Positions 42,820 through 49,931 of a DNA stretch of 64,000 nt are shown here, one piece after another; position 1 is the stretch's first letter, and each line of letters opens with the position of its first letter. The notes under the pieces are model-generated. The model was not told the DNA's origin. It saw only the letters and a list, made by a program, of their open reading frames with translations, and made no database searches. Position numbers and translations under genes: made by a program. Source of the DNA: Planctomycetaceae bacterium (GTDB taxonomy: Bacteria; Planctomycetota; Planctomycetia; Planctomycetales; Planctomycetaceae); NCBI GenBank assembly GCA_900299185.1, contig OMIV01000289.1, forward strand, positions 1-64,000, given 5' to 3'.

Positions 42820-43446
42820 TCAGCAACTCACAAGATCAGACGGCTGCATGTTGGCGCGCTGCAACAGCATCAACGCATCGGCGACAGACTTAGAATCAAG
42901 CCGTCGCATCAAGCGAGCACGGCGATCTTCAATGGCTCGTAGAGATAGTCCCAGGTGCGCGGCGATCTGTTTGTTGGAGAAGCCTTTCGCCACCAACACC
43001 AGTACTTCTCGCTCTCGGGTGGTGAGCTGACCGATACGTGAGCGAGCCGCTTCGCGTTCCTGACGGACTTCCCGTTCGGACTGATCAACTCGAAACGCGA
43101 ACTCGATCTTCTGCATCAAATCGTTCAATCGAAACGGCTTCTCAAGCACGGTGATTGCGTTGAGCTGCATGGCTTCAACGGCGATCGAGACCGTGGCATG
43201 ACCGCTTACCACAATGACCGGCAACGTCGATGTTCGTTGCCGGAGCTCGCGCAGCAGATCGAGTCCCGAACGACCTTCGAGCATCAAATCCAAGATCAAG
43301 CAGCCTGTTGCTTCGAGCGGCACTGACATCAAGAAGTCATCAGCGGATGCGAAGCTGCGAACTGGCACGTTCATGAATTCGCCGACGCACTCCAGTGCAT
43401 GAGAAACAGCAGGGTCATCATCAACAATGAAAATCGTTTCGGACAT
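42820..43446 (-). CDS. FixJ/NarL-type response regulator (208 aa)
   Basis: A receiver domain (FIVDDDPAVSHALE, phospho-acceptor Asp in LILDLMLEGRSG, Lys in VLEKPFRL) is joined to a LuxR-type helix-turn-helix (LTTREREVLVLVAKGFSNKQIAAHLGLSLRAIEDRRARLMRRL). It should be a cytoplasmic DNA-binding regulator phosphorylated by the kinase encoded upstream. The ATG at 43446 follows a TTG, with GGTGAG upstream. It lies 115 bases downstream of the kinase gene on the same strand, so the pair is probably one unit. Its targets are not known; the nitrate operon across the kinase promoter is a candidate. Confidence 0.93.
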   Translation of the reverse strand: MSETIFIVDDDPAVSHALECVGEFMNVPVRSFASADDFLMSVPLEATGCLILDLMLEGRSGLDLLRELRQRTSTLPVIVVSGHATVSIAVEAMQLNAITVLEKPFRLNDLMQKIEFAFRVDQSEREVRQEREAARSRIGQLTTREREVLVLVAKGFSNKQIAAHLGLSLRAIEDRRARLMRRLDSKSVADALMLLQRANMQPSDLVSC

Positions 43447-43561
43447 CAACTCTCACCTTCATCAACGCGGCTTGTTTGTGTGCGTCTAAGAACTCGAATC
43501 ATTCCAACCAAAGTTCAATGGACCTCGCATGATCAAAGCGTTGCTTCAGTCTGCCGAAGAC

Positions 43562-44701
43562 TTAACTGAGTTCAGGTGCTTCCGGCGGTAGTTCAATCGT
43601 GAAGGTTGCTCCAGAAGGTGCCGTCGCATGCTCTAACCAAATCCGGCCTCCATGTGCCTCGACGATGGATCGGCTCATGGCCAACCCAATGCCCATTCCA
43701 TCGGGCTTGGTCGTGTAGAAGCGATCGAAGAGTTTGTCCTCAATCTCGGGACTTACTCCTGGTCCAGAATCTGAAACTGAAATTCTTACTCCACCCATCG
43801 ACACCGCAGTCCGCAGCGTGATCGTCCTCTCGACAGCATTGCTGCTGAGAAAGGCATCACAGGCATTCTGCAAAAGGTTCAAAAGCACTTGTTCGAGTTG
43901 AACTCGATCGCCGACCACTGAGGGCAACTGCTGTGCCAGCTCGAGCTCCAAGCGAATTCGATGCGGCCTGGCTGACGGCTCGAACCAGCGCAACGCCGAC
44001 TTCACGAGTTCATTAGGAGCCACAGTCGAACGCTCACCCCGCCCGTTCTGCACGAGCTCTCTCAAACTTCGCAGGATGGAACTCGCTCGCTGTGATTGCT
44101 CGACGACATTCTCAAGTAGTGGCCGCAGTCGCTGACTCGTGCCGCCAGTCTCCATCGAAGCAGGCATCAACGCCAAAGCAAGTTCGGCTTGCAGCGAGCA
44201 AGCGGCGAGCGGTTGATTGAGTTCATGAGCAATCGCCATTGCTAGATGCTCGACCGTCTGAGCACGTTGAGTTCGCGCGAGAACTTCAAGATGCTTGCGC
44301 GACTCTTCAGCGGCTCGATTGCGCTGAATACCGAGTGTCGACGTGACGGTGATAGCAAACAGAGCCAACCCGCGATTGACCAGCACTTTCCAATACTCAG
44401 TGCTGCCCGGCCCCACCGAGACGAAGAGATCGAGGATCGTCAACACGTAACACAAGGCCGCCATCGCGACCGTGAAGCGTGGCTGCGGACGACTGAGCGT
44501 TAGCAAGATCACAGTGGCATATGGCACCGCCGACGCGACTCCCAACGGAGTCACGACATCAACCAAAAAGATGCCCAGCGCTAACGCAACCGCCAGCAAT
44601 CGACGATCGCGATTCCAAGTGATCGCCACGATTGATTGACCTCTCACCACACGAATTAGGTCTCTGGTCTCACTGACTAAAGTGATGACGTCGACCGACA
44701 A
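43562..44701 (-). CDS. Sensor histidine kinase, FixL-like, membrane bound (379 aa)
   Basis: The N-terminal region (about residues 28-125) has three or four membrane spans with short loops and no large periplasmic sensor, so it may sense the membrane state or a small solute. A coiled linker leads to a dimerisation/phospho-acceptor helix (MAIAHELNQPLAACS, His in AHELNQPLA) and a HATPase domain with the N box NLLQNACDA, G1 DSGPGV and G2 GIGLAM. The layout matches the FixL/DctB type that pairs with FixJ-like regulators. The start is uncertain: TTG 44701 lies directly beside a ribosome site. The gene is transcribed away from the nitrate operon. Confidence 0.9.
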   Translation of the reverse strand: MSVDVITLVSETRDLIRVVRGQSIVAITWNRDRRLLAVALALGIFLVDVVTPLGVASAVPYATVILLTLSRPQPRFTVAMAALCYVLTILDLFVSVGPGSTEYWKVLVNRGLALFAITVTSTLGIQRNRAAEESRKHLEVLARTQRAQTVEHLAMAIAHELNQPLAACSLQAELALALMPASMETGGTSQRLRPLLENVVEQSQRASSILRSLRELVQNGRGERSTVAPNELVKSALRWFEPSARPHRIRLELELAQQLPSVVGDRVQLEQVLLNLLQNACDAFLSSNAVERTITLRTAVSMGGVRISVSDSGPGVSPEIEDKLFDRFYTTKPDGMGIGLAMSRSIVEAHGGRIWLEHATAPSGATFTIELPPEAPELS

Positions 44702-45193: not shown

Positions 45194-45502
45194 ATGGCAG
45201 AACTGCATCCCGCATTTCTGGATTCGGCGAGCGTTACAGGTCCGATGTCAGACGCTCGACATTGGGAGACTCTTTATCTCGACACACGACTTCTAGCCGC
45301 CAACCACATCATTGAATTGAGTTGGCGTGAGCGGAAGACGCGGTGGACTCGACATGACCTTGTTCGAGTCCTGATCGATGTCCTGCAAGAACTGGTGACG
45401 ACACCCATCGGCCAGATCCCGCACGACGAAGTTAAAGAGGTGCTGCGCCACGTTTATCTCGGTGCCTGGGATGTCATCCCAGCGGACTACCGTGATTTCT
45501 AG
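45194..45502 (+). CDS. Small protein of unknown function leading the nitrate operon (102 aa)
   Basis: No signal peptide and no membrane span; the middle is rich in charged and aromatic residues (ETLYLDTRLLAANHIIELSWRERKTRWTRHDLVRVLIDVLQELVTTP), and the end reads VKEVLRHVYLGAWDVIPADYRDF. I do not recognise the family and see no Cys or metal motif. The stop lies 24 bases before nrtA, which has its own Shine-Dalgarno, so it is very probably co-transcribed with the transporter. AAGGA is upstream of the ATG. A role in control or assembly of nitrate uptake is a guess from position. Confidence 0.65.
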   Translation: MAELHPAFLDSASVTGPMSDARHWETLYLDTRLLAANHIIELSWRERKTRWTRHDLVRVLIDVLQELVTTPIGQIPHDEVKEVLRHVYLGAWDVIPADYRDF

Positions 45503-45526: not shown

Positions 45527-46873
45527 ATGTCGTCTCGTATCAACCCAGCCAACACATCGCAGAGATCTACTTCGCTGAGCCGGCGTCAGTTCCTGACCAT
45601 TGGGGCGGCAGCATCCGGTGCAGCCTTGCTTTCAGGTTGTGGAAGTTCTGCAACACCCCCAGTGGCGACAGAAGGCACCATGCCTGCTCCGGGCATCAGC
45701 CCGACCACCGGAGTTGCCACAGCCAGCGACGCGCCTGAAGTGACCGACCTGAAGTTTGGCATCATTGCTCTTACCGATTGTTCGCCACTGGTCATCGCTC
45801 ATGAGAAGGGACTCTTTAAGAAGTACGGCATCAATTCGACGATCAGCAAAGGAGCCAGTTGGGCCGCGATTCGAGATGCCTTGTCGAACGGTGACATTCA
45901 AGGCACTCACATGCTGTTGGGAATGCCAATCGCTTCGACGACGGGACTGTTGGGATCTCCGAAGAAGCCGATGGTTGTGCCGTGGTTGATGAATCGAAAC
46001 GGGCAAGCCATCACGTTGAAGAAAGACCTGCTGGGCAAAGTTGCTGGCGACCCGAAAGCGCTGAAGCCGCTCGTGGATGAAGCCAAAGCAGCCGGCAAAC
46101 CCATGACATTTGCCATGACATTCCCACCAGGAACTCACGCGATGTGGATGCGGTACTACCTCGCTGCTGGCGGTATCAATCCAGATTCCGATGTCGCTCT
46201 TTCGACAGTTCCTCCACCGCAGATGGTGGCGAACATGAAGGTCGGAAAGATGGATGGCTTCTGCGTGGGTGAGCCTTGGAATGCTCGCGCAATCGCAGAC
46301 GACATCGGCTTCACGTCGGTCTCGACACAGGAGATTTGGAAGGATCATCCCGAGAAGGTCTGCGCCTTCACCGCTGAATTCGCTGAGAAGAACCCCAAGA
46401 CCGTGAAGGCCGTTTTGAAGGCTTTGCACGAAGCGAGCGTGTGGCTGGATGACCTCAACAACCGCCCCGAGCAATGCGACATCGTGTCACAAGCCACCTA
46501 CATCAATTGCCCCAAGGAGATCATCCTTGGTCGGCTGCAAGGTCACTATGACTACGGCGATGGCCGCAAACTTGAAGATCCCAACTACATGATCTTCAGC
46601 CAGCGCAACTGCAACTACCCGCAGCCGAAGTACGCCGTCTGGTGGCTATCTCAATTTCGACGCTGGGGCATGGTCGAAGGCGCTCCCGATTACGAAGGCG
46701 TCGCCAAACAAGTCATGCGAACGGACCTCTATGAAGAGGCCATGAAGGAATTGGGGTACGCACACGGCGGTCTCAACAACGAACCCGAGACACTGTTCGA
46801 TGGTGTGACCTTCGATCCCACTGCTCCCGAGAAATACGCGACTTCATTCGCAGTGAAAAACCTGAAGGGATGA
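45527..46873 (+). CDS. nrtA: Nitrate/bicarbonate ABC transporter substrate-binding lipoprotein (NrtA/CmpA family)
   Basis: A twin-arginine signal (SRRQFLTIGAAASG) is combined with a lipobox (LLSGC, Cys 38), so the protein is probably a folded, Tat-exported lipoprotein on the outer face of the inner membrane. The mature part is the NrtA/CmpA solute-binding fold: LKFGIIALTDCSPLVIAHEKGLFKKYG, GTHMLLGMPIAST, MTFPPGTHAMWMRYYLAAGGINPD and GKMDGFCVGEPWNARAI. It binds nitrate or a similar oxyanion for the permease encoded downstream. The next gene begins directly after its TGA. Confidence 0.92.
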   Translation: MSSRINPANTSQRSTSLSRRQFLTIGAAASGAALLSGCGSSATPPVATEGTMPAPGISPTTGVATASDAPEVTDLKFGIIALTDCSPLVIAHEKGLFKKYGINSTISKGASWAAIRDALSNGDIQGTHMLLGMPIASTTGLLGSPKKPMVVPWLMNRNGQAITLKKDLLGKVAGDPKALKPLVDEAKAAGKPMTFAMTFPPGTHAMWMRYYLAAGGINPDSDVALSTVPPPQMVANMKVGKMDGFCVGEPWNARAIADDIGFTSVSTQEIWKDHPEKVCAFTAEFAEKNPKTVKAVLKALHEASVWLDDLNNRPEQCDIVSQATYINCPKEIILGRLQGHYDYGDGRKLEDPNYMIFSQRNCNYPQPKYAVWWLSQFRRWGMVEGAPDYEGVAKQVMRTDLYEEAMKELGYAHGGLNNEPETLFDGVTFDPTAPEKYATSFAVKNLKG

Positions 46874-47149
46874 GTGTCCAAGATGTTGGCTCAACCATCG
46901 ACGTGGGATTTGTGGAAGCAAGCACTTTCGCACTGGGGAGTCTGGAAGCGGTCGCTGGTCATTGGACTGACCGTCGGCTGCATCCAGTTGATCGTTAATC
47001 AAGGCGATCATTGGCTGCATGGACGAATCGATGTGGGAGTCGTCGTGAAGACAATTATCACGCCGATCATTGGTGTGGCGGTGGCCCTGTTTTCAGCGGC
47101 TGGAGCCTTCGTTGAGTTGCGCAGGCAAGCAACTCGCATTGATGAATAG
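46874..47149 (+). CDS. nrtS: Small membrane protein resembling NrtS nitrate/nitrite transporter
   Basis: A 91-residue protein with two predicted membrane helices. The core WKRSLVIGLTVGCIQLIVNQGDHWL (positions about 23-47) matches my recollection of the small NrtS family, which shows a basic start, a Gly-rich helix and an NxGD motif before the second helix (VVVKTIITPIIGVAVALFSA). NrtS proteins mediate nitrate/nitrite movement in some bacteria; the assignment here rests on motif and operon context. The GTG start at 46874 abuts the nrtA stop, with AAGGGA overlapping the end of nrtA, so the genes are coupled; ATG 46883 is an alternative. Confidence 0.72.
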   Translation: MSKMLAQPSTWDLWKQALSHWGVWKRSLVIGLTVGCIQLIVNQGDHWLHGRIDVGVVVKTIITPIIGVAVALFSAAGAFVELRRQATRIDE

Positions 47150-47162
47150 AGGATGACAAGAC

Positions 47163-47942
47163 ATGGCTGCTCGGAATTCCTTCAAAGGCGATTGGCTGGT
47201 GCTGCCCTTGGTCGGCATCGTCGCAGTGCTCTTACTGTGGACCGCATCAAGTGCCTCTTGGGCGAAGAGTTTGCCGTCACCGCTGAAGACATGGGAGATG
47301 AGCAAGCTCTATGTGATGGAACCACTCGCTAAACGCGGAGAGTTGGATCAAGGAGTCGTCAGGTTTACCTGGTACTCCTTGGTGCTAGTGACGAAGGGTT
47401 ATGCCATCGCGTTGCTGGTTGGGACTCCGGTTGGCTTCTTGTTGGGATGTTCAAAGCGACTGACGCTGATGTTCGACCCCATCATTCAGTTCCTGAGACC
47501 GGTCTCTCCGTTGGCCTGGTTGCCTCTGGGTTTGGTGCTCTTTCAAAAGTCAGAACCCGCTGCACTTTTCACGATCGCCTTGTGTGCCATGTGGCCCACG
47601 GTCATCAACACGGCGGTCGGTGTAAGAGCGGTTCCACAAGATTATTTGAACGTGGCTCGCGTGCTGAAGCTGTCTCGCACCAAGACGCTCTTCAAAGTGC
47701 TCCTTCCGGCGACGTTGCCCTACATGTTTACCGGCTTCCGCTTAAGCCTTGGAATTGCTTGGCTGGTGATCGTCGCGTGCGAAATGTTGATCGGTACGCC
47801 GGGCGTCGGTGGCTTCTTATGGCAGGAATACAACAGCCTGATTTACGAGCACATCATCCTCTGCATTCTCACGATCGGCCTCGTCGGCTTCGTGCTCGAT
47901 CGGCTGATGGGCATGGTCGAAAAGCGTTTCTCAGCCGTGTGA
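47163..47942 (+). CDS. nrtB: Nitrate ABC transporter permease (NrtB family)
   Basis: A 259-residue permease with about six membrane spans: an N-terminal helix (VLPLVGIVAVLLLWTA), then GTPVGFLLGCSKRL, the conserved EAA-type loop VGVRAVPQDYLNVARVLKLSRTKTLFKVLLPATLPYMFTGFRLSLGIAW, and VVACEMLIGTPGVGGFLWQ. It carries the oxyanion through the inner membrane using the two ATPases encoded after it. The ribosome site is GAGGA, 13 bases after the nrtS stop. Confidence 0.93.
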   Translation: MAARNSFKGDWLVLPLVGIVAVLLLWTASSASWAKSLPSPLKTWEMSKLYVMEPLAKRGELDQGVVRFTWYSLVLVTKGYAIALLVGTPVGFLLGCSKRLTLMFDPIIQFLRPVSPLAWLPLGLVLFQKSEPAALFTIALCAMWPTVINTAVGVRAVPQDYLNVARVLKLSRTKTLFKVLLPATLPYMFTGFRLSLGIAWLVIVACEMLIGTPGVGGFLWQEYNSLIYEHIILCILTIGLVGFVLDRLMGMVEKRFSAV

Positions 47943-48089: not shown

Positions 48090-48938
48090 ATGTCGTTCTT
48101 GGAACTCACTGCGGTTGGCAAAAGCTACGGGCAAGGCTCGAATCGAACTGAGGTGTTGCGAGACATCAATCTGTCGATCAACGAGGGTGAGTTTGTCGCC
48201 ATTGTGGGATATTCAGGAGCCGGCAAAACCACGTTGATCTCGATGATCGCAGGCTTGCTCGCTCCAGACACGGGTGAGGTGCGTTGCGGCGGTCAGGTTG
48301 TTGCGGAACCTGGTCCCGAGCGCGGGATCGTGTTTCAGAATTACTCGCTGCTGCCTTGGTTGAGCGTTTACGAAAACGTCGCCATGGCCGTCGATCAAGT
48401 CTTCCCGCAAATGTCCTCAGCGGAGCGACGTGCTCGAACAGAGCAGTACATCGCGATGGTCAATCTGACGCCTGCGAGCCACAAGAAGCCGCGCGAACTT
48501 TCGGGAGGCATGCGGCAACGCGTTTCCGTCGCACGAGCACTCGCGATGGATCCCAAGGTCTTGCTGCTCGACGAACCGCTTAGCGCGTTGGATGCCCTCA
48601 CGCGCGGCACACTGCAGGACGAGATCGCTCGCATCTGGCGCGAGTCTCAAAAGACGATCGTGCTCATCACAAACGATGTCGACGAAGGACTGCTGCTCGC
48701 CGATCGCATCATCCCTCTTAGCGCTGGCCCGTCAGCCACGCTCGGCCCCGCGACCGTCGTTGATCTTCCGCGGCCGCGCGACCGCAAAGCGTTGATGAAG
48801 GATCCCGCTGCGAAGCGAATGCGACTACAGGTCATCGAGTACTTATTGGGCGAAGGCCGACGCCGCGCTCCCGCACAAGCGGTTGCCGCCGATCTAACAA
48901 CCGCTCCAGAGCGCAGCGCGGTCGCGGTTGTGGCTTAG
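48090..48938 (+). CDS. nrtC: Nitrate ABC transporter ATP-binding protein, first of two
   Basis: A full ABC ATPase of 282 residues: Walker [11 protein letters not shown]-loop [10 protein letters not shown], signature LSGGMRQR and Walker [16 protein letters not shown]. The switch His region reads ITNDVDEG rather than the usual THD, so the H-loop His is replaced by Asn. That suggests one degenerate site in an ATPase heterodimer with the next gene. The short C-terminal tail lacks the NrtA-like regulatory domain of cyanobacterial NrtC, so the symbol follows gene order only. AGAGGA lies before the ATG. Confidence 0.88.
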
Positions 48939-48991: not shown

Positions 48992-49846
48992 ATGAATTCG
49001 AATGACAAGTACTTGGAGATCTGCGACCTCACGAAGGCATTTGATGGGCCGACGGGAACCATCGAAGTCGTCAAAGGCTTTCAGCTCAAGGTGAAGTGCG
49101 GCGAGTTCATTTCATTGATTGGCCACTCGGGCTGCGGCAAGTCGACGGTGCTGTCGATGATCGCGGGACTCACACTGCCAACCGGCGGCGGCATCATTCT
49201 CAACGGGCGAGAAATTGACGGCCCCGGCCCTGACCGCGGAGTTGTGTTTCAAGCTCCCTGCCTGCTGCCGTGGATGACCGCCGAAGAAAACGTGCTGCTC
49301 GGCGTGCAACAAGTATTCGCCAACGACTCGAAGCAACGGCAGCGAGAGATCGCACGCGAGTACCTGGAGCTGGTGGGACTTGGTGGGGCATTTCATAAAC
49401 GCCCGGCAGAGTTGTCTTCAGGCATGCGTCAACGAGTTGGCATTGCTCGGGCCTTCGCCCTCTCGCCCAAGTTGCTGTTGCTGGATGAACCATTCGGAAT
49501 GCTCGACGCCCTTACGAGGCTCGAACTTCAAGAGATCCTGCTCAGCGTTTGGCAGCGGCATCAGATGACGGCGGTCATGGTCACTCACGATGTCGATGAA
49601 GCGATCTTGTTGTCGGATCGTGTCGTAATGATGACGAATGGCCCACAAGCGCGAGTTGGTGAAATCGTCAACGTGCCATTCGCGCGACCTCGAGATCGCA
49701 TCTCGTTGCTGGAGTCCGCTCAGTACGAAGACGTCCGAGACAATGTGTTGTCATTTCTCGAAGAGCGATCGAACATCAAGCCACGTCTGCCGATCGAAAG
49801 CGGTGCTGTCAGCAATGCCTCAGCCGAGATCGCAACTCGCACGTAA
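48992..49846 (+). CDS. nrtD: Nitrate ABC transporter ATP-binding protein, second of two
   Basis: The second ABC ATPase of the operon: EFISLIGHSGCGKST (Walker A), GPGPDRGVVFQAPCLLPW (Q-loop), signature LSSGMRQR (Ser in place of the second-position Gly), Walker B LLLLDEPFGMLDALT and H-loop VTHDVDEA, so this copy keeps the catalytic His that the first one lacks. It likely dimerises with the preceding ATPase. The start is ATG 48992 (MNSNDKYLEI); an in-frame ATG at 48965 would add nine residues. It is the last gene of the operon, ended by the terminator at 49904. Confidence 0.9.
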   Translation: MNSNDKYLEICDLTKAFDGPTGTIEVVKGFQLKVKCGEFISLIGHSGCGKSTVLSMIAGLTLPTGGGIILNGREIDGPGPDRGVVFQAPCLLPWMTAEENVLLGVQQVFANDSKQRQREIAREYLELVGLGGAFHKRPAELSSGMRQRVGIARAFALSPKLLLLDEPFGMLDALTRLELQEILLSVWQRHQMTAVMVTHDVDEAILLSDRVVMMTNGPQARVGEIVNVPFARPRDRISLLESAQYEDVRDNVLSFLEERSNIKPRLPIESGAVSNASAEIATRT

Positions 49847-49903: not shown

Positions 49904-49931
49904 CAGCCACCGCTCTTGGGAGTGGTGGCTG
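49904..49931. terminator. Bidirectional terminator between the nitrate and lpx operons
   Basis: An 11-bp stem (CAGCCACCGCT / AGTGGTGGCTG, one mismatch) with a 6-base loop lies between the convergent operons. On plus the stem is followed by GCATTGTTTT; on minus it is followed by TTTTGTTTCTG. Both sides are suited to intrinsic termination. It sits 58 bases after the second nrt ATPase gene and 33 bases beyond the stop of the Gfo/Idh gene. Confidence 0.75.

Follow-up and report, generated by a model that had tools for sequence, protein, structure and literature searches.

The nrt operon of the window and the gene between nrtA and nrtB

The window, meaning here the whole stretch of 64,000 nucleotides of planctomycete DNA analyzed, carries on its forward strand the genes for an nrtA-type substrate-binding protein with a twin-arginine-like leader (45527..46873; NMT1_2, PF13379, 318 bits), an nrtB-type permease (47163..47942; TIGR01183, 237.4 bits, cut-off 209.05), a short nrtC-type ATPase (48090..48938; TIGR01184, 296.3 bits, cut-off 291.8) and an nrtD-type ATPase (48992..49846; TIGR01184, 331.5 bits, same cut-off), past which lies a terminator-like stem of 12 pairs (49904..49931, +) that is a pattern match only, such sites being no more numerous in the region than in shuffles. 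With NrtB and NrtC/D scoring above the curated cut-offs and an NMT1-type binding protein at their side, the operon is indeed of the nrtABCD type, as the earlier note had it. It resembles cyanobacterial NrtABCD in these families and in the order A-B-C-D, but differs in an additional small gene, hereafter S, which is found between A and B or, in some relatives, between B and C, as well as in its NrtC-type ATPase, in which no C-terminal NrtA-like or substrate-binding domain was found by Pfam search, whereas cyanobacterial NrtC has a C-terminal domain resembling the binding protein.

On the opposite strand, a divergent histidine kinase gene (43562..44701; HisKA, HATPase_c) and that of its partner, a LuxR-type response regulator (42820..43449; Response_reg, GerE), are present, and a kinase/regulator pair of a similar kind is located upstream of the nrt operon of one relative (G058); the kinase is a possible regulator of the operon. 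An open reading frame of 102 aa just 5' of nrtA (45194-45502, +), a possible gene, matched nothing in Pfam or NCBIfam and had no counterpart in the eight relatives' loci compared.

S itself is an open reading frame of 91 codons (46874-47149, +) with a GTG start and a TAG stop; the nrtA TGA (46871-46873) abuts its GTG, and the nrtB ATG (47163) is found 13 nt past its stop. As the initiator methionines of the homologues align with ATG 46883, 9 nt beyond the nrtA stop, the start is probably better placed there, which would give a small membrane protein of 88 aa (46883..47149; residues are nevertheless numbered from the GTG throughout). Translational coupling to nrtA, which had been claimed previously, is plausible in the window, where the distance is either 0 or 9 nt, but does not hold for the relatives in general, four planctomycete ones showing nrtA-S gaps of approximately 69, 81, 74 and 4 nt, as calculated from coordinates. 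Since the differences from the G001 orthologue are distributed as 31/23/53 over codon positions 1/2/3 (88 codons), and since S orthologues occupy the same place in other genera, S can be considered a conserved protein rather than a chance reading frame. Its hydropathy profile has two peaks, corresponding to two helices, and AlphaFold2 predicts a short helix at the N-terminus and then a hairpin (mean pLDDT 77.3, pTM 0.52), with an N-x-G-D motif (NQGD, residues 42-45) at the end of helix 1, so the description of the frame as a two-helix protein of 91 residues with an NQGD motif between nrtA and nrtB has been confirmed.

Relatedness of S to NrtS

The NCBIfam model of NrtS (NF038050, curated cut-off 25 bits), a match to which the earlier note had proposed as a check and the absence of which it would have taken as a refutation, was silent on the S protein of the window and on four of its orthologues, even at E<=10, and found nothing in the window's own genome at E<=1, whereas the control genome of Synechococcus elongatus scored above the cut-off. 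Neither Pfam nor PHROGs had a match for the window protein; assignment to the VraH family (best E 0.003, 17.3 bits versus a cut-off of 40) was rejected; the PDB yielded no match by sequence, and nothing at E<=0.001 by a fold search, which has little to say about a hairpin. No relative of the window S was found among plasmid records, five of which contain matches to canonical NrtS (four of them annotated as such). The silence of NF038050, Pfam and PHROGs, together with the weak VraH-family matches, is what might be expected if S were an unrelated small membrane protein, the NrtS likeness of which is common to hydrophobic hairpins in general, yet this reading seems highly improbable given the results of the following searches.

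A single-protein search with the window S in 170 genomes of the order recovered four clear orthologues, as well as weak matches in G013 and G164, for which NF038050 scores are 43.0 and 59.9 bits, respectively; two further matches (G038, E 8.9e-5; G077, E 0.008) were considered unsure and were left uncounted. A profile made of the window S and the four orthologues was then run on 392 genomes of the phylum and, at E<=0.01, matched 12 of them: two with S, seven with canonical NrtS and three (loci L028, L030 and L031) judged to be chance matches. NF038050, run on the same 392 genomes, detects exactly these seven, their proteins scoring from 30.9 to 58.7 bits (G013 at 43.0). Profile–profile comparison by hhalign of 10 S-like with eight canonical NrtS proteins resulted in a colinear alignment of 77 columns (probability 97.8, E 1e-12, score 69.5), while 200 block-shuffled alignments reached at most 47% probability and a score of at most 27, and a reversed alignment reached 0.3%. 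Because all seven NrtS genomes were recovered and the hhalign result stands far above its controls, common descent of S and the characterized NrtS at the superfamily level is firm, as far as sequence comparison can tell, and NF038050 is simply too narrow to detect the S branch. The designation “NrtS-like” thus holds in the sense of profile homology through the orthologues, but not in the sense of membership in NrtS as currently curated, outside of which S stands as a diverged sister branch.

The extent of this divergence could be seen from the comparison of 16 intact S-like proteins with 11 canonical ones, three of which are plasmid-encoded in Vibrio, Nostoc and Trichlorobacter and annotated as NrtS (a degenerate locus, L055, described below, was excluded from the 16 and from all the alignments). 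Their tree is split into two groups at 100/100 support. Both groups are similar in protein size, share G35 and N42 without exception (27/27) and R26 (24/27), D45 (24/27) and K59 (23/27) for the most part, and are alike in their AlphaFold2 models of moderate confidence, in which a short N-terminal helix precedes a hairpin of two helices. W24, R26, G35, Q38, N42, Q43, D45, W47, K59, P64 and A75 are invariant in all 16 S-like proteins, and G35, L38, N42, P67 and V70 in all 11 canonical ones, so that W24, Q38, the extended motif NQGDxW and P64 set S apart from NrtS. The canonical motif of the second transmembrane helix, VPYxVST (P67 in 11/11, S71 in 10/11, T72 in 9/11), is absent from the S-like proteins: P67 is found in none of the 16 and P64 in every one, meaning that the helix 2 proline is shifted by three positions. 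Being a separate branch with a changed second helix, S would thus seem to be something more than NrtS relocated into an operon, and, with the canonical motif gone, its transport activity may have changed or disappeared.

Residence in nrt operons, gain and loss

In contrast to the canonical genes examined, S genes reside in nrt operons. A single peptide pattern, searched for in GTDB genome contigs, yielded 10 S loci (four planctomycete and six verrucomicrobial), and S was found in seven of the 286 genomes of one verrucomicrobial class, all seven being among the 46 with a close NrtB (E<=1e-100; 54 of 286 have NrtB at E<=1e-50). In total, 16 intact members, five planctomycete and 11 verrucomicrobial, were found, and all 16 are inside nrt operons, while nrt-operon genes at E<=1e-10 were seen in none of 12 canonical NrtS loci (two of these loci being just 3 kb long), and canonical NrtS at E<=0.01 in none of 11 S-bearing genomes, that of L055 included. 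The order nrtA-S-nrtB, which was to be looked for in relatives, is retained in 12 of the 16 members and in both phyla (the window, G001, G058, G135 and G154 among the planctomycetes; L051, L054, L093, L094, L095, L096 and L098 among the verrucomicrobia), with A-B-S-C in three others (L049, L050, L052) and A-B-porin-S-C-D in the remaining one (L097); the G135 contig stops past nrtB and a chlorite dismutase gene, its nrtC/D being beyond the contig end.

Strict residence of this kind also fits the alternative that S is an accessory subunit or regulator of NrtABCD, stabilizing NrtB or tuning the pump to nitrogen status, its own transport having been lost, and as such it counts against the reading of S as an autonomous conduit. 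This alternative, to which we would give rather less than even chances, could further draw on S adjoining nrtB in 15 of the 16 loci, on either side, on the replacement of the canonical second-helix motif by conserved W24, Q38, W47, P64 and A75, and on the lack in these ATPases of the C-terminal domain to which a role is ascribed in cyanobacterial NrtC. The porin gene that separates nrtB from S in one operon, however, speaks against it, as does the prevalence of related operons that do without S: nine of the 14 in the order and 39 of the 46 in the verrucomicrobial class.

Those 14 genomes (of 170 in the order; NrtB at E<=1e-50) have S in the nrtA-nrtB gap in five cases, a chlorite dismutase-like gene in three and nothing in five, the gap being unreadable in one (G109, nrtA off the contig, counted among the nine without S). 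In 25 S-less verrucomicrobial loci, the gap exceeds 200 nt in three and contains an S-like frame in none. When 64 nrtB-bearing genomes were searched with a profile, S was found in the 16 already known and in none of the other 48, and 47 of the 64 have neither S nor canonical NrtS. The planctomycete G163 has an nrt operon without S and, elsewhere in its genome, a separate canonical NrtS gene (L173), which was rejected as an S-like member on account of its sequence, VPYCVST. On the NrtB tree, the S label requires 12 changes, at least seven of them forced by well-supported branches, and shows no clear clustering, as 99 of 500 shuffles needed equally few. Combined with the residence of all members in nrt operons, this indicates that S is acquired and lost in a modular fashion, yet remains tied to the operon. 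Nor does any column of NrtB or NrtA clearly track S presence (32 and 217 of 500 shuffles, respectively, were as high), which is a further point against the subunit alternative, and the correlation of S and NrtB distances (r 0.48; 0 of 9999 permutations) is equally compatible with co-inheritance and with interaction.

Several observations on the surroundings of these operons deserve mention in their own right. The chlorite dismutase in the nrtA-nrtB gap of S-less planctomycetes (loci L034, L040, L041) was identified by PF06778 in G113, and by the likeness of reading frames in G104 and G107, and in two S-bearing planctomycetes such a gene is found past nrtB or divergent 5' of nrtA (L014:11300-11827, L015:4304-4861); S of the window has no PF06778 match. 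The enzyme likely guards against chlorite formed from imported chlorate. Proximity of chlorite dismutase to ABC transporters annotated for nitrate has already been published (PMC9751292). Verrucomicrobial nrt operons (L049:3628-4668, L054:5611-6717 and similar ones) start with a gene for a second NrtA-like NMT1_2 protein and have a divergent LysR gene, which makes a soluble NrtA-like regulator possible there. At L055:4300-5200, in a verrucomicrobial metagenome-assembled genome labelled Akkermansia, the nrt operon is collapsed, with nrtA mostly gone, nrtB absent and S in frame with the end of nrtD, be it by an assembly error or by a real deletion.

Possible role of S beside the ABC pump

Genes of nitrate assimilation accompany S. 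A strong NirA match lies 3' of the nrt operon in seven of the 11 verrucomicrobial S operons, and an alginate-export-type porin, a flavoprotein reductase and an NIR_SIR protein are encoded downstream in L051. In G154, nrtD is followed by genes for a NarK-like MFS protein, a NirB-NirD fusion, a 4Fe-4S/DmsC-like protein and a molybdopterin oxidoreductase (NasA-like, although below the cut-off, the best score being to a formate dehydrogenase model, also below its cut-off). Another contig of the window's genome (G000:C78, L152) encodes a fused NirB-NirD, a NarK-like carrier and a 4Fe-4S/DmsC-like protein, NirB scoring far above and NarK just below the cut-off (300.1 versus 311.7), and an NIR_SIR protein is present in all 14 planctomycete nrtB genomes. 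S likely has the same substrate range as NarK and FNT (NirC) and shares their genetic neighbourhood, but those proteins are unrelated to it and much larger. NarK at E<=1e-40 was found in six of 16 genomes with S and in 19 of 48 without it (Fisher p 1.0); being equally frequent in both, it gives no grounds to regard S as its simple replacement, and this candidate role was rejected.

NrtS, one of the smallest known nitrate transporters, has been described as an oligomer, a hexamer. Both the curated family and the account of Maeda and colleagues concern stand-alone NrtS, which, in the latter, reportedly provided low-affinity nitrate uptake in a cyanobacterium that is otherwise transport-less. Against this background, we lean, at roughly even odds, towards S being a diverged, operon-dedicated branch of NrtS that acts as a putative conduit for nitrate/nitrite independent of the ABC transporter. 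The hairpin would be inserted in the membrane with both ends in the cytoplasm, so that helix 1 would carry NQGD at its outer end and helix 2 would have K59 close to its start; the protein would assemble, as is reported for NrtS, into a homo-oligomer, and this oligomer, presumably produced only alongside the ABC pump, would pass nitrate and/or nitrite through the membrane independently of that pump. An autonomous, albeit operon-tied, conduit is preferred over an obligate ABC subunit because of the patchiness of S on the NrtB tree and the lack of a tracking NrtA/NrtB residue, and a carrier or channel beside the pump is what the retention of N42, D45 and K59, the autonomy of canonical NrtS and the modular gain and loss would all argue for.

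As for the direction, a nitrite/nitrate overflow valve is slightly favoured over low-affinity uptake, since the inside-negative membrane potential would drive anions outward along a passive route. Uptake through S at high external nitrate, a sub-case of the same conduit, has the canonical cyanobacterial precedent on its side, but seems rather unlikely: it would make the least sense if S is co-expressed with a high-affinity pump, the membrane potential would oppose passive anion entry, and a NarK-like carrier is also available in six of the 16 S-bearing genomes.

A literature search, with most subscription journals outside its coverage, found no publication on an operon-embedded NrtS; the 2019 paper of Maeda et al. 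(Plant Cell Physiol 60:2180) is cited in PMC10161378 and PMC10952691. The NrtS model in current use overlooks a branch found in two phyla, and a branch that always accompanies an ABC nitrate pump ties the NrtS fold to that pathway and pinpoints the residues that have changed, while the operons with and without S represent a natural set for probing what an ABC importer gains from an additional two-helix carrier. That S constitutes a second class of NrtS, dedicated to the pump as a partner of NrtABCD, either as a small, oligomeric and modular leak or valve with a substrate in common with the ATP-driven importer or as a carrier recruited as an ABC subunit, is a proposition for which we would put the chances just short of even; if true, nitrate import in two phyla would combine a pump with a leak, or would make use of a former carrier turned into a subunit of the ABC transporter.
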